35,769 bases of DNA, taken from a virus. Under the pieces are notes generated by a model that worked only from the letters and a program-made list of their open reading frames with translations, had not been told where the DNA came from and did not search any database. The translations under genes and the position numbers were made by a program. Location: the IMG/VR virus record IMGVR_UViG_3300030329_001504, positions 1 through 35,769 of that record; one strand, given 5' to 3'. Shown here one piece after another: positions 1 to 35,769 of this stretch; the first letter of the stretch is position 1; each line of letters starts with the position of its first letter.

Positions 1-117
1 AGTGCCACCTAACATATGACTTTGTTTGTCAGTTTCAATTAATTGCCCATACATATTACAAGTTAGAATCGCTGTTCCAATAATACATCTATATGTTCTT
101 GCAATGTGTCTAAACAA
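1..117 (-). CDS. YfiM-like (DUF2279-type) membrane protein, N-terminal half, cut by window start
   Basis: Partial gene running off the low-coordinate end. From TTG at 117 the frame gives a short basic n-region, a hydrophobic stretch (CIIGTAILTC) and a flavobacterial-style signal peptide end (MYGQ), followed by ETDKQSHMLGG. The D-K-x-x-H-x-x-x-G pattern is what follows the signal peptide in small YfiM-like phage membrane proteins. The only in-frame ATG is at 54 and would lose the signal peptide, so I prefer the TTG, although this overlaps the thioredoxin-like gene by 55 bases; the start is uncertain. The rest of the protein appears at the other end of the window (35511-35769). The frame is complete at base 1, so the missing piece must be 2 modulo 3 bases long. 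Function in phages is unknown; an envelope or lysis-related role is an inference from the neighbours. Confidence 0.6.
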   Translation of the reverse strand, partial: MFRHIARTYRCIIGTAILTCNMYGQLIETDKQSHMLGGT

Positions 118-3118: not shown

Positions 3119-3147
3119 CAAAAAACCACGCAAATCATTTACGTGGT
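3117..3147 (-). terminator. Intrinsic terminator upstream of the island nuclease
   Basis: On the minus strand ACCACGTAA pairs with TTGCGTGGT (nine pairs including one T-G, 5-base loop), followed by a T6 run and GTA. It ends transcription of the small membrane genes upstream (3176-3549) and isolates the GTG-start gene. Confidence 0.85.
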
Positions 3148-3175
3148 CTTTGACTAACAATTAAACTAAAAAAAA

Positions 3176-4433: not shown

Positions 4434-4462
4434 AAAAAAAAAGGCGCAATTAAGCGCCTTTT
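4434..4462 (-). terminator. Intrinsic terminator after the major capsid gene
   Basis: Minus strand: AAAAGGCGC, 6-base loop, GCGCCTTTT (nine pairs) followed by a run of Ts. It starts about 20 bases after the capsid stop codon and closes the packaging/head operon. Confidence 0.9.
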
Positions 4463-4481
4463 CTATATAGATAAACTATGA

Positions 4482-24068: not shown

Positions 24069-24476
24069 TTAATTAGTAGATTTTGTAATGCTTCCAGTCA
24101 ATGTAATCGAACCTGAATAGCTTACAGGTGATTCCATTTCAGCTGATTGCTCTACACTAGATAAATAACCTTCAGCAGTATATACAGCATCACCAGTTTC
24201 GGCAGTACCAAATACGCAAGTTATTTGTGTTCTAGCTAAAAGAAAATCAGCCATTTCAATAGCATTACTACTATCACTATAATCAACTAACCCTTCAAAA
24301 GAAATTTCACCACTTATAACACCAGCAATTACTTCTTGAAAACCACTTGAATTTTTAGTAGTCGCTTCTGGTAAGTCGTTAGATAGTGTTAATGAACAAC
24401 TTGTAGTGTGTCCTAGTGTTACAGTTTCAATCTTTAAAAGCAAATTAGTTCCATTAAATACTGATGTTGTAGCCAT
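24069..24476 (-). CDS. Tail tube protein 1
   Basis: 135 residues, beta-rich: LLLKIETVTLGHTTSCSLTL, SGFQEVIAGVISGEISFEGL, VDYSDSSNAIEMADFLLART and SPVSYSGSITLTGSITKS. The pattern matches TP901-1-like phage major tail proteins, which stack as hexamers to make the tube. It is directly upstream of the chaperone genes, the canonical place of the tube gene, and has its own TATATTTG 35 bases upstream. A paralogue lies next to it. Confidence 0.8.
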   Translation of the reverse strand: MATTSVFNGTNLLLKIETVTLGHTTSCSLTLSNDLPEATTKNSSGFQEVIAGVISGEISFEGLVDYSDSSNAIEMADFLLARTQITCVFGTAETGDAVYTAEGYLSSVEQSAEMESPVSYSGSITLTGSITKSTN

Positions 24477-24531: not shown

Positions 24532-24999
24532 TTAAGCATTATTCCATTCAAAGTTAGCATTATTCCATAAAATATCGGCAGTATTCCAATACCTATCACC
24601 AGAATCATCTTGAACTGTAAAAGGATTTATTAATGTAATTTCCAAATCATATGATACAAGATTTTCCATATCACCAACTTGTTCTACATTATTTATATAC
24701 CCTTTGCCAGTTAATGTAATTCCTTCAAATGCTTCTTGTGTAAATACCCATTCATTGACTTCTTTAGTTAAAACCATTGATGCGAGTTGGTCAAAATTAA
24801 CTGTATCGCTATAATCTACTAGACCAGCAACAGAAATTGTCCCTGACCTAATACCAGCGATTACCTCTTTAAAACCTAACGAATCTTTTGATGTTGCATC
24901 AGGCAAATCTACATTCAATGAAAATCTTGATTGTGTGGAATGACCTAATAAATTCCCATTATGGAACAACCCAAAAGATGTCCCATTAATTAGTGCCAT
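24532..24999 (-). CDS. Tail tube protein 2 (paralogue with Trp/Asn-rich C-terminus)
   Basis: 155 residues. The central part aligns by eye with tail tube 1: DLPDATSKDSLGFKEVIAGI, SGTISVAGLVDYSD, GKGYINNVEQVGDMENLVSY. It differs by a C-terminal extension with the tandem ILWNNAN / EWNNA pattern (about 137-155). It may form a special ring (tip or terminator), an alternative tube, or a surface-exposed decoration. Transcribed just before tail tube 1 and overlapping the 81-residue gene by one base. Confidence 0.75.
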   Translation of the reverse strand: MALINGTSFGLFHNGNLLGHSTQSRFSLNVDLPDATSKDSLGFKEVIAGIRSGTISVAGLVDYSDTVNFDQLASMVLTKEVNEWVFTQEAFEGITLTGKGYINNVEQVGDMENLVSYDLEITLINPFTVQDDSGDRYWNTADILWNNANFEWNNA

Positions 25000-25622: not shown

Positions 25623-28600
25623 TTATTTTTCTAGTGCGCTAACTCTAGCTTTTAAATCATCATTTTCTTGTTTTAATTCTTTAATAGCGTTTGTTAATAA
25701 TGCTATCATATGCGAATATCCAAGCGCATCAGGTTCATTATTTTCATTGTAGTAAACATATTCATTTAATCCTAAATCGTGTACATCTTCTGCAATTAAC
25801 CCAGCAAATTGTTTACTATCACCATTAATATCATTATAAGTTTTAGGTTGTAATTGTAATACTTCATCTAATCCTTTTGTGTAATCTACAATATTAGTTT
25901 TGTAACGTCTTGATGAAGTAGAACGCTTAATTTCACCACTAGTAGAATCCATATACATATTGGCAAATGAACTTGTTGTGTTACTTCTAGTTGCAGCACC
26001 ACAATTTATTTTTCCATTTTGTGCTATTTCTAAACGCTCACTACCATTAGTACCAAATTTTAAACCAAAATATGATGCTAACATCATCGCTTCAGCACCA
26101 TTAGGTTTTGCAAGTCCATAATGACAATATTCATCACTATCGCCCCACGTATCGCCAACATTCATTCCAATCATTCCTTCATTCAATTTCAATTCTATGT
26201 TGCCAGAAACTACAAATGCTTCAGTTAAACTAGTTGTCCCTATTCCCACACGCCCACTAGAATCAATACGCATACGTTCAGAACCACTAGTATAAAACTT
26301 TTGTGTGTCAGTAGAAAAATATATATAGTTGTTAGTATCACCATTATGATAAATTCCAGTATCTACATATAAACCACCACTAACATCAACACCACTACTT
26401 GTAGTTTCAATTTTTTTATTTCCATTATGGTATAACTCAACAGCACCACCATTAATGAATTTTGCCATTTCTGTGGAATCATCATTATCTCTAATAACAA
26501 CATCATCTTCAGCTAATATTTTTATATCATCACTATCACATCTAATAATCAAATCTCCTGTACTGTTAGATATATAAGAATTATTAGATTCGTGATATAT
26601 TTCCAAATCTGCACCATTTCCGAGTTGTAATTTTTTATCATCATATATTCTAAAATCAACTTGTGTGTGAATGTTGCCTTGACTACCATCAAAAGTCATC
26701 ATTGTTGTTGCAGTACCACTATCATTTTCTGTTTTTATTATGATATTATCGCCATCACTTTGGTTCGTTATACTTAAGTCGCCCTCTTTAGTTAAAACAA
26801 CAGCTTCGCCACCTGACCCTGTATGATAAATATGCATTCTTGAATCACTACCACCTAAATATATTTTTTTACTAGCACCCATATTTAAAGCACCTGAAAA
26901 AGTTGCAGATTGGTCTGAATGATTTATTTGAAATGCATTTGTTCCACCAGAATTTTTAAAGTTCCAGGTGTTAGTTCCTGATTCTAAATAATGGTCGCCA
27001 CCATAATCAAATGTTATTCTTGAATTTGTTGTTATATTGCCTGATGTAATCGTACCAGAAAAAGTTGCGTTGCCACCATTTGACATATCTAGTCGAAGGG
27101 CATCTATTTCAGTTGTGTCGTCAGTACCTCTTAATATTATATCTTTATCTGCTGTTGATGCTTCTATGATAAAATGACTAGAATCTTGCCTTAAAGTGCC
27201 ATAATGAGTACCACCATCTTTAAATCTAATATTACCACCATCAGCATCTAAATTTATTTGACCAGTAGCATCAACATTAAAATCATCAGCAGAACTGATA
27301 GTAAAATGACCTGATGCATTAGATATATCACCAGCAAAAGTTGCATTACCATCCTCATCTATTGTAAATCTATCATTTGTTCCTAAATCTCCTTTGGATA
27401 TTTTAAATTTATCATCATCTGAATTATCAATACCAACTGAATAAGTATCACCTGATATATTGAATTTAATAGCAGCATCACCAGTACTATTATTTTGTAT
27501 AAGTAATTGTTGAGTAGCATCTGTGTCTGATGTTAATATGTGTAGTTTATTTTCAGGAGAAGCAGTCCCAATACCAACTAAACCAGCATTAGTTATTCTT
27601 AATCTATCTGTACTAGCAGTTCTTAAAGTTATTTGTGATGCAGATTGGTTTGCATCTATATGTGCAACAGCATTACTATCAACCCATAAATCTAATCTTT
27701 TATTTCCACCTTGATTATCTTCTAATCTTATAAAAGGTGTGTCACCATATAACATTAATTGTTTGCTAGGCGAAGTAGTTCCTATTCCTAAATTCCCTGA
27801 ACCATCTAACACCATTTTTATATTACCACCAGGTGTGCCAGTTCCCCATTGCATAGTTGCAATATTAGTACCACCGTTTCTTATATAATAAGCGTTGTTG
27901 TTGTTAGTGTTATCAAATACAATAGCATTATTGCTGTCAAGATTTATATGCCCATCTGTACCATTAAGAGTAATTTGACCAGAAAAAGTTGCATCATTGC
28001 TACTTATTGTGATAGGTGCATCAGTCAAAGTATCTGAATCACTCCACATTGTTACAGTGTTTGCAGTACCAGAACCATCTATTGTGCCACCACCACCTGA
28101 TGGTGTTTCCCACGCAACACCACTACCTGTTGATGTTAATACTTGACCATCACTACCTTGTGCGCCATTAATTTTATAATTTGTAGCATCAACACTACCA
28201 GCAAAAGTTGTTGTTCCACTATTATTAAAATAAACTAAACCACTTCCAGCGTTTATGTTTAAATCTTTTGAAGTACCACTACCAAAATAAGAATGACCAG
28301 ATGCTGGGGTTAAAGTAACACTACCACCAAAAGTTGCATTTGTATTACTAGCAATGTGTAATGCTTGAGTATGTCCACTCCCAGCAGTATCAGAATCAGC
28401 ATTTACATAAAATCTATGGTTTTGCATTCCTGCATAAGCACCGTCAGCACTACCATAATAAATAGTATTATTACCATTTTGTTGAAATGTTTGGAAAATA
28501 CTTACGTTATTTCCTTCGTAATTTTCGGTATAAATTCCTGATTGCTTATTTGTGTCAGCAGTAAGATTAGTTGCTATTTTTATTTGACCATACCCACTAC

Positions 28601-31600
28601 CTCTTATATCAATCGAGCCATCAAAAGTTGCGTTACCATTTGTATCAATGTCAAATCTTGTATCACCTCCATCAGTAACCTTAAATCCAGCAGATGCATT
28701 TATTCTAACTATTGTGCCAGAACTATTGCCTTCTATAAATGCATTTGTACTACCTAAATATAACGGCCAATCAGAATCCAAAAAGATAGCACCTCCATTA
28801 ATATCTAATTTATAACTAGGCGAAGTAGTTCCAATACCAATATTGCCTGTGTTAGTAATATTTAAATAATTGCTTGTATCGTTTGTTCCAAAAGATATGT
28901 TACCACTATCTCTGTTATAAATAAAAGCACTCGTGCCTGATTTTGATATTAACAAAGAATCACCTGTTCCTGAACCATTATCAACATCTGAAAGGTATAT
29001 TTGACCAGCACCACCAGAAGCACCAACAACGTGTAAATTACCACCAGGCGAAGTAGTGCCAATACCAACTCTTTTTGTTGTTTTAGTAAGAACCATTGTT
29101 GGCGTTGTTAAACCATCATTAGTTTCATCAAAAGCTAAATATGTTTGACCATCAGGAATACCAAAAGCCCATTTACTATGACCTGGTCTTTCAAATTTTA
29201 TATTTGCTGTTGCACCATCACTTATATGCAATTTAGCATCAATACTAGTTTCACCTATGCCCAATTTATTATATACAATGACATTACCACCAGCATCAGC
29301 TGTTCCATTTAACTTCATTGTTAATAATTCAGAACCACCAGTTGATTTTACATAAAAATCCATATCAGTTCTGGTAGCACTTGCATTAGTATCTAATTCT
29401 ATACGACCCCAATTTTGATGTGAACCACCATAATCTGCCATAAATTGAATCCTACCTAGTAATTGGTTTGTTGATGGGTTATCACCATCTCTTAATAATT
29501 GTAAAATAGGGTAATCATTGTTTGTAGCTATTGTTACATTAGTGCCACTAGATGAAATTATACTATCACCAATAGTATCGCTATCAGTCCATTTAGTTAT
29601 ATAACCAGTAGTACCAGAACCATCTACCGCACCACTACCTATTGGCACTTCTATAATGTTACCACTAGAATCAACAGCTAATCTTTGTGTAGCAGTACCA
29701 GTAAATGTACCTGAACCATATGAAGGAAATGCAACTTCACCTGTATCATCAACTTGAAATCTTGTATATAATGTTCCACCTGAACTAGCTGCTTCTCGCA
29801 ACATATAACGCCCACTAGAATCTATTGTGTGTTGCCACACTTGACCTGTGCCACTTCTGTACATTCTAATATTTGGTGCTGACGAATCAGCTACTTCTAA
29901 TTTGTCATTAGGCGAAGTAGTACCAATACCTAAATTATTTACAAACCAAGAATCGCCACCAGAACTTAATTTAACATTATTGCTAGTGCCATCATTATCA
30001 TACATATATAATGAAGATGCATTACCACTAGCACCAACATAAAACTTAAATCTTTCTTCACCATTATCGGCTCTAAATTTTACATATTTTTCTGTAGCAG
30101 TAGTAAGTACGTCTAATCTAGCATCAGGCGAAGTAGTTCCAATCCCGACATTTTGTGAAGTATCTATATATAATGCTAAAGTATGATTTGTCATTAAAGA
30201 CAAATGCGAATTTGTTGTTGTTCTAATACTATTTTGGTCTATTCTTAAAGATTGTGATGAATGTGTTAAATTTAAAATAGCATCGCCAGACGGGGGGTCT
30301 ATTGTTATGCTACTACCAGTAGTTGTTATATCACCAGAAAAAGTTGCAGTAGTGCTTGTTATTAGTGCTTTTTCTCCACCAATATCAAATCTTATATTGC
30401 CCCCAACAGCAAATATATTTGTATAATCATTTGTTGCGTCCCATTGAATACCACCTCTTTTATTTGATGCTTCATAAAATTCTATTGTTGGGTCTGTTGT
30501 AACTCTAATTCTACCAGCCACTTCAAGTTTTTGTCCAGGCGAAGTTGTGCCTATACCGACATCACCCCCAGCTATTGTAAAGCCGTTAGTTCCTACATTA
30601 TATCTTACGCCACCAGCACCAGAAGCACCTGTAATTACTAGGTTTTTAGAAGTATCAAGAACATAACTAAATGATTGTGAATAAGTAGTATCACCATTTC
30701 TTAACTGAAAAATGTTTACTGCACCATCTGTATCGTCTGAAACAGATAATTTATAAGTTGGTGAAGAATTTCCAACCCCTAAATTATTACCATCTTCCAT
30801 TAACACTATATCACCACCAGCTTTAGCGTGAATTGGATATGTTGTGGCTGATGCATTATAAAGATAAAAATCATTATTAGTTTCTTTGTAAAGCGTCCAT
30901 TTAGTAGCTCCAGTATCTCTATAATGCAAATAAGAACCAGAAGTTCCACTATCATCAGCATCTGAATCAATCGTTATTGTAGCTGAACCATTAGCTTTTA
31001 CTCTTAATGAAGCATTGCCAGATTTAAAAATATCTAAACTGCTGGTAGGCGAAGTTGTGCCTATACCGACATTTTGACTTGTATTTATAAATAATACAGA
31101 ATTATTGCCTGTTTGAAAATCTATTGCAGCACCACTACTACCACTAGCATTAATAGTAACTATATCTGAATCTTGACTTACATCAATATATAGTCCAGAA
31201 AAATTACTAGCATCTGTATAATGTAGAAAGTTGGCAACAGACCCAGCTGTACTTCTAAAAACACTTAAATTTCTACTTGTTGGCGCAGTTCCTATTCCTA
31301 AATTCCCACCATCAATTTGTACATCACCAGCAAAAGTTGCGTTGCCATTTGAATCAAATTGCATTTTAATATCAGTACCAGCACTTCCTTTAATTATATC
31401 TAATCCATAAAGATTGTCGCCACTTGTAGGGTTTGACCTTAAACGCCAAGTTGCACCACTTGTAATATCTATTTCAGATGCACTTGAACCAGCCGTATTT
31501 ATTGCTCTTATATTACCCTCTACATCTAATTTTTTACTAGGCGAAGTTGTGCCTATACCAACTAAACCACTTTGTTTAAATCTAATTACTTCAGCATTTG

Positions 31601-33212
31601 TATTTATTGTAACGTCATTTGAAGTGTCTGATGCACCCCTAATAGAACCATAGTTGCTATTATCACTATTTCTTAATATAAGCCAATTACCACTTTTAAT
31701 TTCTATTTTACCAGCAACAGTTAACTTTTCACCAGGCGAAGTTGTGCCTATACCGACATTTTGGGATGAATCTAATGTAAGCACATCATTAGCACCATTA
31801 GTTTGAAACTTAAATGAACCACTACCTGAATTTCTTATAATTACATCACTTCCTGTCCATATATACCAACTATTATAAGTAATATAATTATCATCATTTG
31901 CAAATAATATTAATTTTCCACCACTTCCTGTGTGTATATTATTCCCAGAAACAATATTATTACTAGCTTCTAAATTTGTTGTAAATATTGTGTCGCCATC
32001 AACATAAAAATCTGTGTCATATGTTAATGTAGAATCATTTGACCAATACGCAATTTTATTTGCACTACCAACACCAGACAATACACTAGTATTGTCAATT
32101 TTCATCCATTTATCAGTACCACCAGCTTCAACAAATACTGCCCAATCGCCAATTTTCCAATCCGTTTCACCATCTAAATTAGTTGAACCAGGCGTAGATA
32201 CATTATAGAAGTGTCCAACAGTACCTGTGCCACTTGCTAATGTTGGACTATTAGTATCAGCGTTCCAATTCCCTTGAAAATTTAAACCACTTGGTACAGC
32301 AGCTATTTCAGATTCAACAAATGCTTTAATACTTTGTTGTGTAGCTAATGCAGTATTGCTATCACTAGCCATATCATCTTCATCTAATATTGTTGTAACC
32401 CTAGAGCCACCAGCTAAAGCAACACCACTATTATTTACACTAAAGCGTTCTACATCATTTGTTCTAACAACAAAAGTGTCAGTAGTAGAAAACCCAAATT
32501 TAGTGGTTGTATTGCCTTGATGAAATATATAGGTTGGTATTCCTAGCGTAGATTTGTAAAGATTTGATTCACTATTGTTTGAATCTATTTCTAAATATGA
32601 ATTACCTTCACCACCATCAATATCACCAATTTTATAAACATAACCCCCATCATCAATATCTAAATATTTTTCATTACCAGAACTAACCCTAAAACTGCCA
32701 TTAACTTCTAATTTAGTTTGTGGCGTTGCAGTGCCAACACCTAATCTATTGTTGGATGAATCCCAATGTAAAAGGTTATCGTATGTAAGTGTTTCAGTGT
32801 CAAGCCAATACGCTAGTTTATTTGCCACACCAGTACCATCAACACCACCAATTTCGCTTAAAGTAACCCAATCAGTACCACTACCAGTAGAACTTAAAAC
32901 TTGATTTGATGTACCAGTAGAATTATTTGAATCGTAAAATCTTGCAGTTAATCTTAAATCGCCAACAATATGTAGTGTTGTTGTTGGTGAACTTGTCCCT
33001 AATCCAATTTTAGAAGATGCTGGTGTGCCTGAATTTATGTCAACATAAAAGAATGTAGATATTTGAAAATCTTCACTTGAAATATACACGCTAGAATCAT
33101 TACCAAGTCCATCAGTAATGATTTTTTTAGTTGATGTTATACCTACGTTATCACTTACTTTTAATAAGCCATCATAAGTATCTTTAATTTTAGTTCCAAA
33201 TAGAGTTGACAT
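25623..33212 (-). CDS. Giant tail fibre with GIGT repeats and C-terminal S74 chaperone
   Basis: 2529 residues, about a fifth of the window. It contains 16 copies of a 'V-G-I-G-T-T-S-P-x-x-K-L-x-V' beta repeat spread along the chain, and four copies of a '(D)GSG-x-A-N-x-x-x-Y/M-W-x-D-x-D-T-L-T' module. The C-terminal 99 residues form a Peptidase_S74 intramolecular chaperone: SSRRYKTN (putative Ser2433 and Lys2438 self-cleavage dyad), QPKTYN, QFAGLIAEDVHDLG, ALGYSHMIALLTNAIKEL, then a coiled-coil end. Such fibres trimerise, then the chaperone cuts itself off. The protein is the likely receptor-binding fibre or a tail side fibre. It starts behind a terminator-promoter junction. Confidence 0.93.
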   Translation of the reverse strand: MSTLFGTKIKDTYDGLLKVSDNVGITSTKKIITDGLGNDSSVYISSEDFQISTFFYVDINSGTPASSKIGLGTSSPTTTLHIVGDLRLTARFYDSNNSTGTSNQVLSSTGSGTDWVTLSEIGGVDGTGVANKLAYWLDTETLTYDNLLHWDSSNNRLGVGTATPQTKLEVNGSFRVSSGNEKYLDIDDGGYVYKIGDIDGGEGNSYLEIDSNNSESNLYKSTLGIPTYIFHQGNTTTKFGFSTTDTFVVRTNDVERFSVNNSGVALAGGSRVTTILDEDDMASDSNTALATQQSIKAFVESEIAAVPSGLNFQGNWNADTNSPTLASGTGTVGHFYNVSTPGSTNLDGETDWKIGDWAVFVEAGGTDKWMKIDNTSVLSGVGSANKIAYWSNDSTLTYDTDFYVDGDTIFTTNLEASNNIVSGNNIHTGSGGKLILFANDDNYITYNSWYIWTGSDVIIRNSGSGSFKFQTNGANDVLTLDSSQNVGIGTTSPGEKLTVAGKIEIKSGNWLILRNSDNSNYGSIRGASDTSNDVTINTNAEVIRFKQSGLVGIGTTSPSKKLDVEGNIRAINTAGSSASEIDITSGATWRLRSNPTSGDNLYGLDIIKGSAGTDIKMQFDSNGNATFAGDVQIDGGNLGIGTAPTSRNLSVFRSTAGSVANFLHYTDASNFSGLYIDVSQDSDIVTINASGSSGAAIDFQTGNNSVLFINTSQNVGIGTTSPTSSLDIFKSGNASLRVKANGSATITIDSDADDSGTSGSYLHYRDTGATKWTLYKETNNDFYLYNASATTYPIHAKAGGDIVLMEDGNNLGVGNSSPTYKLSVSDDTDGAVNIFQLRNGDTTYSQSFSYVLDTSKNLVITGASGAGGVRYNVGTNGFTIAGGDVGIGTTSPGQKLEVAGRIRVTTDPTIEFYEASNKRGGIQWDATNDYTNIFAVGGNIRFDIGGEKALITSTTATFSGDITTTGSSITIDPPSGDAILNLTHSSQSLRIDQNSIRTTTNSHLSLMTNHTLALYIDTSQNVGIGTTSPDARLDVLTTATEKYVKFRADNGEERFKFYVGASGNASSLYMYDNDGTSNNVKLSSGGDSWFVNNLGIGTTSPNDKLEVADSSAPNIRMYRSGTGQVWQHTIDSSGRYMLREAASSGGTLYTRFQVDDTGEVAFPSYGSGTFTGTATQRLAVDSSGNIIEVPIGSGAVDGSGTTGYITKWTDSDTIGDSIISSSGTNVTIATNNDYPILQLLRDGDNPSTNQLLGRIQFMADYGGSHQNWGRIELDTNASATRTDMDFYVKSTGGSELLTMKLNGTADAGGNVIVYNKLGIGETSIDAKLHISDGATANIKFERPGHSKWAFGIPDGQTYLAFDETNDGLTTPTMVLTKTTKRVGIGTTSPGGNLHVVGASGGAGQIYLSDVDNGSGTGDSLLISKSGTSAFIYNRDSGNISFGTNDTSNYLNITNTGNIGIGTTSPSYKLDINGGAIFLDSDWPLYLGSTNAFIEGNSSGTIVRINASAGFKVTDGGDTRFDIDTNGNATFDGSIDIRGSGYGQIKIATNLTADTNKQSGIYTENYEGNNVSIFQTFQQNGNNTIYYGSADGAYAGMQNHRFYVNADSDTAGSGHTQALHIASNTNATFGGSVTLTPASGHSYFGSGTSKDLNINAGSGLVYFNNSGTTTFAGSVDATNYKINGAQGSDGQVLTSTGSGVAWETPSGGGGTIDGSGTANTVTMWSDSDTLTDAPITISSNDATFSGQITLNGTDGHINLDSNNAIVFDNTNNNNAYYIRNGGTNIATMQWGTGTPGGNIKMVLDGSGNLGIGTTSPSKQLMLYGDTPFIRLEDNQGGNKRLDLWVDSNAVAHIDANQSASQITLRTASTDRLRITNAGLVGIGTASPENKLHILTSDTDATQQLLIQNNSTGDAAIKFNISGDTYSVGIDNSDDDKFKISKGDLGTNDRFTIDEDGNATFAGDISNASGHFTISSADDFNVDATGQINLDADGGNIRFKDGGTHYGTLRQDSSHFIIEASTADKDIILRGTDDTTEIDALRLDMSNGGNATFSGTITSGNITTNSRITFDYGGDHYLESGTNTWNFKNSGGTNAFQINHSDQSATFSGALNMGASKKIYLGGSDSRMHIYHTGSGGEAVVLTKEGDLSITNQSDGDNIIIKTENDSGTATTMMTFDGSQGNIHTQVDFRIYDDKKLQLGNGADLEIYHESNNSYISNSTGDLIIRCDSDDIKILAEDDVVIRDNDDSTEMAKFINGGAVELYHNGNKKIETTSSGVDVSGGLYVDTGIYHNGDTNNYIYFSTDTQKFYTSGSERMRIDSSGRVGIGTTSLTEAFVVSGNIELKLNEGMIGMNVGDTWGDSDEYCHYGLAKPNGAEAMMLASYFGLKFGTNGSERLEIAQNGKINCGAATRSNTTSSFANMYMDSTSGEIKRSTSSRRYKTNIVDYTKGLDEVLQLQPKTYNDINGDSKQFAGLIAEDVHDLGLNEYVYYNENNEPDALGYSHMIALLTNAIKELKQENDDLKARVSALEK

Positions 33213-33234: not shown

Positions 33235-33268
33235 AAAAAAATAAGGGTCAATTTTTTCCTTGACCCTT
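33235..33268 (-). terminator. Strong intrinsic terminator ahead of the fibre gene
   Basis: AAGGGTCAA and TTGACCCTT form nine perfect pairs around an 8-base loop, followed on the minus strand by ATTTTTTTG. The stop codon of the small basic protein (33248-33250) lies inside the stem. Plus-strand Ts also follow, so it could work in both directions. Confidence 0.9.
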
Positions 33269-33379
33269 GTACTTTTTTTTGCGTTGTGATAGTGATTGAT
33301 TCTTTGAATGTCGTCCTGGTCTTTTTTTAGGGGGTCGCCTATATTCAATAGGGTTAACAGCTTTTTTTCTTTTTCTCAT
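33248..33379 (-). CDS. 43-residue highly basic protein
   Basis: Start ATG 33377-33379. The peptide (RKRKKAVNPIEYRRPPKKRP, then GRHSKNQSLSQRKKKYKGQG) has about 18 Lys/Arg of 43 and reads like a nucleic-acid- or ribosome-binding tail. I recall similar short proteins ending in K-x-x-G-Q-G in flavophages, without known role. It lies between the holin-like gene and the fibre, and its last codons and stop are part of the terminator stem, so translation and termination may influence each other. Confidence 0.6.
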   Translation of the reverse strand: MRKRKKAVNPIEYRRPPKKRPGRHSKNQSLSQRKKKYKGQGKN

Positions 33380-33438: not shown

Positions 33439-33894
33439 CTATTTACCTATTGATTTACCCTTTTCATAGCTGCGCCCACCAAAATAAGCCAAAATCGTTG
33501 ACATCATCACTTTTTCAAAGGTATCATTCCAAGTTTCATTTATATGAAACCCTATACTATCTACACTATCTAATATTCCAGCAAATGAAAATATTACAAT
33601 ACACCACACCAATACTAATGGTCTTACATTTTTAGTAAGCCAACTTGAATTAGGCGACATATCTGCTTTCCATCTTTCACTAACTTCTTCCATTTCTTTG
33701 TTTTGTTGGTCATATATCATTTGTTGTAATTTGATTTTATCATCAACAGAAATATCAGATTTTGTAATTTCAGATAATGCTTCTTTTGGTGATGTCACGC
33801 CATTTAAAACACTACCTAATGTAGGGTTTATCATTGTTGCAGCACCTAATAATATTGAACCAATTTTAGTGTCTTTAAAACGCTTTTTACTCAT
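33439..33894 (-). CDS. Holin-like protein (3TM / GTA-holin-like family)
   Basis: 151 residues from ATG 33892-33894 (MSKKRFKDTK); an upstream TTG at 33901-33903 in the same frame is less likely because the ATG overlaps the preceding stop (TAATG). The middle NKEMEEVSERWKADMSPNSS, then WLTKNVRPLVLVWCIVIFSF, is typical of the 'holin of 3TMs' family: an acidic helix, S-W-L-x-x-N-x-R-P, then hydrophobic helices (about 91-108 and 124-137). It probably forms the membrane lesion that releases the M15 endolysin encoded two genes upstream. Confidence 0.8.
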   Translation of the reverse strand: MSKKRFKDTKIGSILLGAATMINPTLGSVLNGVTSPKEALSEITKSDISVDDKIKLQQMIYDQQNKEMEEVSERWKADMSPNSSWLTKNVRPLVLVWCIVIFSFAGILDSVDSIGFHINETWNDTFEKVMMSTILAYFGGRSYEKGKSIGK

Positions 33895-34007
33895 TACCAC
33901 CAAGTTTTTAATTCATTAACAAAATTTTTTATTTTGGATTTTATCCATTGACATACTTGGCAAAATTTACAATTTATGCAAGTACATATACATTTTTTAT
34001 TTTTCAT
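33894..34007 (-). CDS. 37-residue Cys-rich microprotein
   Basis: ATG 34005-34007 to TAA overlapping the holin ATG by one base. Sequence KNKKCICTCINCKFCQVCQW carries six Cys in a C-x-C-x-C-x2-C-x2-C-x2-C pattern, then a basic amphipathic helix ending TWW. The Cys pattern suggests binding of zinc or iron-sulfur, or a small disulfide-bonded peptide. Located between endolysin and holin, which argues for expression at lysis. Function unknown; coupling by TAATG supports coding. Confidence 0.6.
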   Translation of the reverse strand: MKNKKCICTCINCKFCQVCQWIKSKIKNFVNELKTWW

Positions 34008-34012
34008 AATTT

Positions 34013-34486
34013 TTAATTTACAATTTTATATACTGTTTTGCCAAATTCCTTTTCGGCAACTAAACATCTACCCCTATTTTTTTTACCATCAATATAACTT
34101 ACGTGAACCCAAGCTGGATTGCCATTTGGGTATGGCGTTCCAAACTCGTATATAAGTTGGTCGAAATTACAATTCAATTTTATCCATTCAAACATTTCTT
34201 TATTGGTTTTATAACCATACACATCATCCAAATCAATCGCCTGTCCTTTACAATGTTGTGATGAAGATGCGCCACCGATAGCTTTGTTTAAATCTTCTGA
34301 CCTAAAAAAGCTATTAACTTTAATAGCACCACCCACCCATAATCGAAGTGGCTCAAAAATATTTTCTGCCAATGCTTTCATATTTTCTATTTGCTTTGCA
34401 TCAGGCACATTTTCTATTCCTAATCTTTTTGCTGTGTTTGAATGTATTGCTTCATTGTAAGTAATATGTTTACTTATATTTTCCAT
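34013..34486 (-). CDS. M15 family peptidase, probable endolysin
   Basis: 157 residues. The zinc-binding signature of peptidase M15 is complete: S-x-H78-x2-G-x-A-x-D85 (SSQHCKGQAIDLDD) and W-V-H128-V (AWVHVSY), preceded by NSFFRSEDLNKAIGGA. The enzyme is expected to cut peptidoglycan cross-links (D-Ala-D-Ala carboxypeptidase / L-Ala-D-Glu endopeptidase fold, Peptidase_M15_3). No signal peptide, so it needs the holin. It follows the OMP-like gene by 3 bases. Confidence 0.92.
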   Translation of the reverse strand: MENISKHITYNEAIHSNTAKRLGIENVPDAKQIENMKALAENIFEPLRLWVGGAIKVNSFFRSEDLNKAIGGASSSQHCKGQAIDLDDVYGYKTNKEMFEWIKLNCNFDQLIYEFGTPYPNGNPAWVHVSYIDGKKNRGRCLVAEKEFGKTVYKIVN

Positions 34487-34489
34487 TTA

Positions 34490-35587
34490 TTATAATTTTA
34501 TATTTATACCAGCTTTAATTGCTTCAAGTTTTCTATCCCAAAACTTTTGAATTTGAACTTCTGTAAATACACCAATGTTTTTAGTTATTTTAAATCCAAC
34601 AACACCACCATATTGATAATCAATCCAATCATCGCTACCATTATAAGTACCATAACTATACCTTTCATCACCTTCAACTAATTTATGTAATGGCAATACA
34701 TTACCATATATATGCGCCCAGAAGTTTTTTCTATAATGGTAAAAATCTAACCCAATAATAGCGCTTACATCAGCAAACCCACCAATTAAATCTAGTTGTT
34801 CTTCATTGTATTGGTTAACTACATCTTCAAATATTGAATTACGATAATCTGCATCTGATGCTGCTAAAAGTTCACCATTAGCATTAAACCATTGATAATC
34901 ATAACCTAAAGATTGCCCAGTAAAAGGGTCTATCATTTCATATAATTGGTCAGTATGCCCAGCGTAATCATATGCCAATGTCCACCACATTTGTCCAGGT
35001 ACATCTTCATTGCCTTGTAAATATAATTGTATTGGATTATGTCCATATGCTTTGTCATATGTTCTATAAATAGCACCCACACTTAAAGAAAGTTTTTTAC
35101 CTATTGGTAAACGAAATCTAGCTTCACCACTTATATAGTTTAAATCTAGTATTTCATTTTGTAGATATTCAGCTTTTAATAAATAATATTTACCTAAATA
35201 TCTAACAAACGCTTGATGATTTTCAAATTCATCACCAGTTCTTCTACCCTTGCTATATTCAACTAACCACTCTAGCCCTTTATTTATATTTCCAATGTTA
35301 CTTTTTGTTCCAACATTGTTTGTTTGTGTTACAAATTTTTCTCTATTTTCATATTGGAAAAATGCAATCTTACGCCATCCATAAGTTACCATAAAATCTG
35401 ATGGATTTCTTTCAGTCGTTTCTATCAATTCATTGTCTTGCGTTACATAAAAACTTTGATTATCTTGAATAGGGTCAGTTTGTGTATATGCGCCATAAAG
35501 TGTTGAATATTTAAAAATGTCCTTTAAGAATTGGGCGTTTGCGCTTACGCTTGTAACTAGTAATAATATTAGTAATAATTTTTTCAT
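34490..35587 (-). CDS. Secreted outer-membrane beta-barrel-like protein
   Basis: 365 residues with a clear signal peptide (KKLLLILLLVTSVSANAQ, cleavage after AQ). The mature part is rich in alternating aromatic strands: MVTYGWRKIAFFQYENR, YYLLKAEYLQNEILDLNYIS, ARFRLPIGKKLSLSVGAIYR, GLDFYHYRKNFWAHIY, GGVVGFKITKNIGVFTEVQI, ending KLEAIKAGINIKL. This suggests a beta-barrel in the outer membrane or periplasm, as in Bacteroidota porin-like proteins. Phages rarely encode such proteins; possible roles are superinfection exclusion by receptor masking, or envelope disruption. Its start lies inside the YfiM-like gene (77-base overlap). Confidence 0.8.
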   Translation of the reverse strand: MKKLLLILLLVTSVSANAQFLKDIFKYSTLYGAYTQTDPIQDNQSFYVTQDNELIETTERNPSDFMVTYGWRKIAFFQYENREKFVTQTNNVGTKSNIGNINKGLEWLVEYSKGRRTGDEFENHQAFVRYLGKYYLLKAEYLQNEILDLNYISGEARFRLPIGKKLSLSVGAIYRTYDKAYGHNPIQLYLQGNEDVPGQMWWTLAYDYAGHTDQLYEMIDPFTGQSLGYDYQWFNANGELLAASDADYRNSIFEDVVNQYNEEQLDLIGGFADVSAIIGLDFYHYRKNFWAHIYGNVLPLHKLVEGDERYSYGTYNGSDDWIDYQYGGVVGFKITKNIGVFTEVQIQKFWDRKLEAIKAGINIKL

Positions 35588-35769
35588 CTTTTTTCTTAAT
35601 TAAATTAATTGTTAAACCTATAATTATACCACCACCTATTGTGGCTATTAAATCGTTATTGTCGAACTTATTATTAGTGCGTGTGCTGTCATAACTTTCT
35701 TTTAATGTACCAACTATTAACGCACCAGCGATAGCGCCTAAAAACGCTTTATTTTCATTTTTTGTTTTT
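35511..35769 (-). CDS. YfiM-like (DUF2279-type) membrane protein, C-terminal half, cut by window end
   Basis: Open frame from base 35768 with no start, ending TAA at 35511. It reads KTKNENKAFLGAIAGALIVG, then TLKESYDS, then FDNNDLIATIGGGIIIGLTI, followed by a basic tail. The order hydrophobic segment, L-K-E-x-x-D-S, F-D-x-x-D-L, Gly-rich hydrophobic segment is that of YfiM-like lipoproteins after their D-K-x-x-H start. The missing start lies at bases 1-117 of the same window, in the same orientation. The C-terminal 25 residues overlap the OMP-like gene. Two membrane segments are predicted. Confidence 0.75.
   Translation of the reverse strand, partial: KTKNENKAFLGAIAGALIVGTLKESYDSTRTNNKFDNNDLIATIGGGIIIGLTINLIKKKDEKIITNIITSYKRKRKRPILKGHF

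Follow-up and report, generated by a model that had tools for sequence, protein, structure and literature searches.

The ends of a 35,769-nt phage genome record are two parts of one YfiM-like gene, adjacent to a predicted outer-membrane barrel gene

The window analyzed here is the full length, 35,769 nt, of an IMG/VR phage record and has no exact end repeat. Its two ends carry the two parts of a single small gene. With a probability of about 0.93, the record holds almost all of a phage genome whose map is circular and was opened by assembly inside this gene at a loss of approximately 35 nt. The product of the cut gene is, by sequence profile, a divergent YfiM/DUF2279 protein that lies below the Pfam cut-off. 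The window belongs to a tailed phage: it encodes a terminase, an HK97-type portal, a major capsid protein, a tail terminator, a major tail protein, a holin, and an M15 endolysin, in addition to a 2,529-aa fibre-like protein, a tape-measure-like protein, and a replication block. All of the main genes are on the minus strand.

The interrupted gene at the window ends

The N-terminal part of the gene (1–117, minus strand) is cut at base 1. It has a TTG start at 117, a signal-peptide-like segment, and a DKxxH motif, and from 117 to 1 it reads LFRHIARTYRCIIGTAILTCNMYGQLIETDKQSHMLGGT. The C-terminal part (35511–35769, minus strand) is cut at base 35769. Read from 35768 to 35511, it gives KTKNENKAFLGAIAGALIVGTLKESYDSTRTNNKFDNNDL...KGHF followed by a stop codon, and it contains the KExxD motif (as L-K-E-x-x-D) and the FDxxDL motif. 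When the ends are joined directly or with one extra base, the reading frame is broken; two extra bases restore it. The spacing of the motifs across the join agrees with that of Escherichia coli YfiM without any gap.

The viral contigs were scanned with the neighbouring 365-aa protein, which gave 26 related loci. In four contigs from two lineages (L002/L003 and L004/L005), both parts are found on the same strand in a single open frame, 36 nt apart, and the genes follow one another as they would if the two window ends were joined. The amino acid identities to the window are 100% (N-terminal part) and 98% (C-terminal part) for L002/L003, and 77% and 89% for L004/L005. Of the 36 intervening nucleotides, the window retains one. 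This means that 35 nt are missing, a length of 2 modulo 3 that corresponds to about 12 codons, and the true genome length would be about 35,804 nt if the relatives are a guide. The initial annotation had taken the window ends for halves of one gene, had noted that a direct join shifts the frame so that a length of 2 modulo 3 should be missing, and had estimated a loss of 10–15 residues; the intact gene in the relatives bears out all of these points.

It is very improbable that the window is chimeric, or only a piece of a larger genome, with gene halves that come from different genomes or copies. It is true that the join is known from relatives: an exact-pattern search for the junction of the window itself gave no match in the viral contigs, a set from which near-identical records may be missing. 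However, each half and each flank finds its match in the same relatives, with the order preserved, on which ground a chimeric contig was rejected, and the gap has just the length that restores the frame. Furthermore, all seven near-complete relatives are of about the same size and run across the region unbroken, six of them with the YfiM-like gene and one (G170) without it. The break at the junction is an ordinary product of assembly. Since the ends are two parts of one small gene, the record contains almost the whole genome of a phage, with its genes on a circular map that was opened at this place by chance.

The circular map and the relatives of the phage

The seven near-complete relatives and the window have a common cyclic gene order. 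Two of them are especially close to the window in gene order and sequence: IMG/VR 3300030116_003389 (G002), with about 95% DNA identity over most of the structural genes, and 3300009103_000091 (G003), with about 85%. Unlike the split copy in the window, the YfiM-like gene is intact in both. They also differ from the window in the site of opening and in the fibre gene, which is diverged and rearranged.

The records are opened at different places. G002 opens in the tape-measure gene, and its two ends share a 6-nt overlap at a site through which the window runs without interruption; the start of G166 is also in the tape-measure gene. The opening of G167 is at the boundary of the portal and head-morphogenesis genes, and those of G003, G168, G169, and G170 are in the fibre region. 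Exact end repeats are present in G003 (119 nt) and G170 (123 nt). The common cyclic order, the different openings, and the unbroken passage of the relatives through the break point of the window indicate that the map is circular and that the record is complete but for approximately 35 nt. This agrees with the earlier proposal of a near-complete genome that is circular or permuted. Of the two observations named there as contrary signs, unrelated genes flanking the ends were not seen, and the only terminal repeats found elsewhere are the 119- and 123-nt ones of G003 and G170, which both lie in the fibre region. The lengths of these repeats resemble what an assembler leaves over when a path closes on itself.

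These repeats also bear on another possibility, namely that the virion carries a linear genome whose fixed ends (cos sites or direct repeats) lie elsewhere, and that the YfiM-like gene is an arbitrary site for the break. Replicating or ligated DNA would then close the assembly graph and make the contigs look circular. Contigs look alike under headful packaging and under fixed ends, and the fibre region holds the opening of four of the eight genomes, including the two with the repeats. On the other hand, other relatives open in the tape-measure gene or between the portal and head-morphogenesis genes, and the window opens in the YfiM-like gene; moreover, assemblies often break at repetitive sequence such as that of the fibre gene, and the lengths of the repeats seem to be those of assembler overlaps. 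Fixed ends appear rather unlikely. The contig data fit a circular molecule and a linear permuted molecule alike: the circularity is that of the map.

In the fibre gene (25623–33212), comparison with G002 gave blocks of 82–98% DNA identity in shuffled order, whereas the remaining genome is co-linear. Repeated fibre modules seem to have been swapped and reordered between close relatives. Two adjacent genes (24069–24476 and 24532–24999) resemble paralogous tail-tube proteins that share the motif GFxEVIAGxxSGxISxxGLVDYS, and a match to a major tail protein family was obtained for the former only. In the protein search of named phage records, the terminase was matched only below 60% identity; therefore, the phage has no named close relative.

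Joining of the ends also affects transcription. On the minus strand, a terminator-like hairpin lies upstream of the connector genes (2715–2684), and another lies 3' of the holin gene (33268–33243), of which a longer version is present on the plus strand (33241–33270). No terminator-like site on the minus strand was found between them across the join. This supports, but does not prove, a single unit of eleven genes that starts with the connector genes and ends with the holin; a continuous unit of this extent had been suggested in the initial annotation. It is the weaker part of that proposal: by chance, each stretch should contain about one site of this kind. Two more minus-strand hairpins of this kind (3121–3151 and 4437–4464) lie among the small genes that separate the capsid genes from the connector genes.

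Family and fold of the YfiM-like protein

The best explanation for the product of the cut gene is an exported, four-helix protein of the YfiM/DUF2279 type, a member of the lipocone superfamily. An alignment of nine homologues matched E. coli YfiM in profile comparison with a probability of 96.4 and an E-value of 1.2e-9 over 74 gapless columns. Against the DUF2279 domains of Bacteroidota, the homologue alignment scored 36.0 (45.8 when YfiM was included), and 40 controls scored 14.3 or less. Single sequences did not reach the Pfam cut-off for DUF2279 (PF10043; 28.6 bits), the best being the homologues L010/L011 with 16.6 bits. Searches of Pfam and NCBIfam with the separate halves and with the whole closest homologue gave matches at chance level only, and DUF2279 was not among them. 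The family assignment made at first sight from the motifs therefore agrees with the profile comparison, and the check proposed with it, alignment to a DUF2279 profile HMM, succeeded for the alignment but not for single sequences against the Pfam cut-off.

The intact homologue from L003 (P0005) was read from the TTG start, the position of which is the same in L003, L004, L047, and L050. Its AlphaFold2 model consists of four helices with a mean pLDDT of 75.7, and a search of the PDB with this model found no significant fold match. Four residues are invariant in all of the aligned phage homologues: His34 in the second helix, Glu75 and Asp78 in the third, and Asp90 in the fourth. The gene is under purifying selection, with a ratio of 0.15 outside the overlaps in the comparison of L003 with L004.

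The lipocone superfamily is described as having a conserved His on H2, Glu on H3, and Asp on H4, together with another acidic residue where H3 ends (PMC12419801). This His/Glu/Asp pattern is present in the phage protein, in which Asp78 is the additional acidic residue, and with the four-helix model it fits the description. According to the same paper, the members studied act on phosphate-linked lipid head groups, in nearly all cases YfiM-DUF2279 proteins are linked with outer-membrane barrels or fused to them, and modification of lipids or of the surface is among the roles proposed for them. The phage protein thus resembles the YfiM clade of the lipocones (eLife RP108061, PMC12419801) in its four helices, its His/Glu/Asp residues, and its neighbour, a predicted outer-membrane barrel; it differs in that it is phage-borne and stands beside an endolysin and a holin. 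The searched parts of PMC12419801 do not mention phage members of this clade.

E. coli YfiM (b2586, DUF2279, PF10043) is likewise short and exported, and its DKxxH motif, KExxD motif, and later Asp have the same spacing as in the phage protein. However, pairwise BLASTP gave no match between the two proteins, the gene neighbours differ, and several of the homologues have a long basic C-terminal tail. Among phage proteins, phrog_26616 was matched by eight of the nine homologues (best E-value 7e-9), and its annotation gives "lipoprotein" only. Caudovirales entries in BFVD gave fold matches to the YfiM-like protein, the best with an E-value of 1e-7 at 41% identity. A genome-collection search with one YfiM-like alignment yielded no confirmed match, and neither the YfiM-like protein nor the barrel was matched in the tblastn and protein searches of named phage records.

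The predicted barrel, the lysis-side cassette, and a possible function

At its end, the YfiM-like gene overlaps with the next gene (34490–35587, minus strand), which encodes a secreted protein of 365 aa. The model of this protein has an N-terminal helix followed by about 12 long strands, and its closest matches in the PDB, at low TM-scores, are to outer-membrane barrels. It is predicted from the model to be an outer-membrane β-barrel with a signal peptide. Next to it are the M15 peptidase endolysin (34013–34486, minus strand; PF08291, E-value 3e-13; phrog_894 endolysin, 2e-31) and, adjacent to the endolysin, the holin (33439–33903, minus strand; phrog_3427 holin, 2e-17).

On the other side of the join, also on the minus strand, the YfiM-like gene overlaps at its start with the gene for a small secreted protein of 111 aa (63–398), which weakly resembles thioredoxin. 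This protein is preceded by a 101-aa protein with a hydrophobic N-terminus and a coiled coil (401–706), which has a weak match to a holin family; both are conserved neighbours. Further upstream are the tail terminator, a connector protein (708–1145; phrog_176, E-value 2e-10), an HK97 gp10-like protein (1145–1627; PF04883, 1e-5), and three more genes of the same run (1629–2657), which are of the connector type by position and keep their order in the relatives. The order of the cassette is thus tail terminator, coiled-coil membrane protein, small secreted protein, YfiM-like protein, barrel, endolysin, and holin.

The coiled-coil protein, small secreted protein, barrel, endolysin, and holin recur as a set in most of the related loci. 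The YfiM-like gene is missing from many related cassettes and from G170, and it is therefore not essential. Where it is present (13 contigs), the barrel is in the same locus in 12, and the gene is directly before the barrel in nine; it lies elsewhere in the locus in L046, L048, and L049, and no barrel is in view in L051. In L025–L027, a second copy of the coiled-coil protein follows the barrel gene. Relatives of the barrel (L052–L055) were found in contigs of metagenome-assembled genomes labelled Bacteroidetes, Nitrosopelagicus, and Maricaulis; in the latter two cases, phage contigs were probably binned with an organism to which they do not belong. The low G+C content and the related cassette in the Bacteroidetes-binned contig suggest that the host is probably a member of the Bacteroidota.

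The following function may be considered. The YfiM-like protein would be exported to the periplasm or the outer membrane and might alter phosphate-linked lipid head groups there; the barrel would be its partner in the outer membrane late in infection, and the host outer membrane would be weakened or altered at that stage. That the protein is a lipid-head-group enzyme, an activity predicted from its family and residues, is somewhat favoured. A role at the outer membrane in lysis is distinctly more doubtful. Tentatively at best, these marine, probably Bacteroidota-infecting phages might carry in the lysis cassette a lipocone lipid-head-group enzyme with its own barrel, which would breach or remodel the outer membrane in place of spanins; in the general family searches, none of the family matches of the window's genes was named as a spanin.

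The pair might instead alter the host surface, as in superinfection exclusion, or remodel the envelope, rather than aid lysis. The YfiM-like gene is optional and its position varies, as in accessory genes, and such a function matches the lipid or surface roles proposed for YfiM-DUF2279 proteins in PMC12419801. In contrast, the gene is in a run that ends with the endolysin and the holin, in what appears to be a single transcription unit with late genes. A surface function of this kind is about as probable as a role in lysis and likewise rather unlikely.

The record can be used as a complete genome minus approximately 35 nt, not as a fragment, which makes statements on gene content and gene order safer. 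The interest of the window is in the cassette rather than in the junction. A lipocone of the YfiM type and an outer-membrane barrel occur recurrently as a pair beside an endolysin and a holin, and this pairing offers a phage system in which the function of YfiM proteins may be tested.
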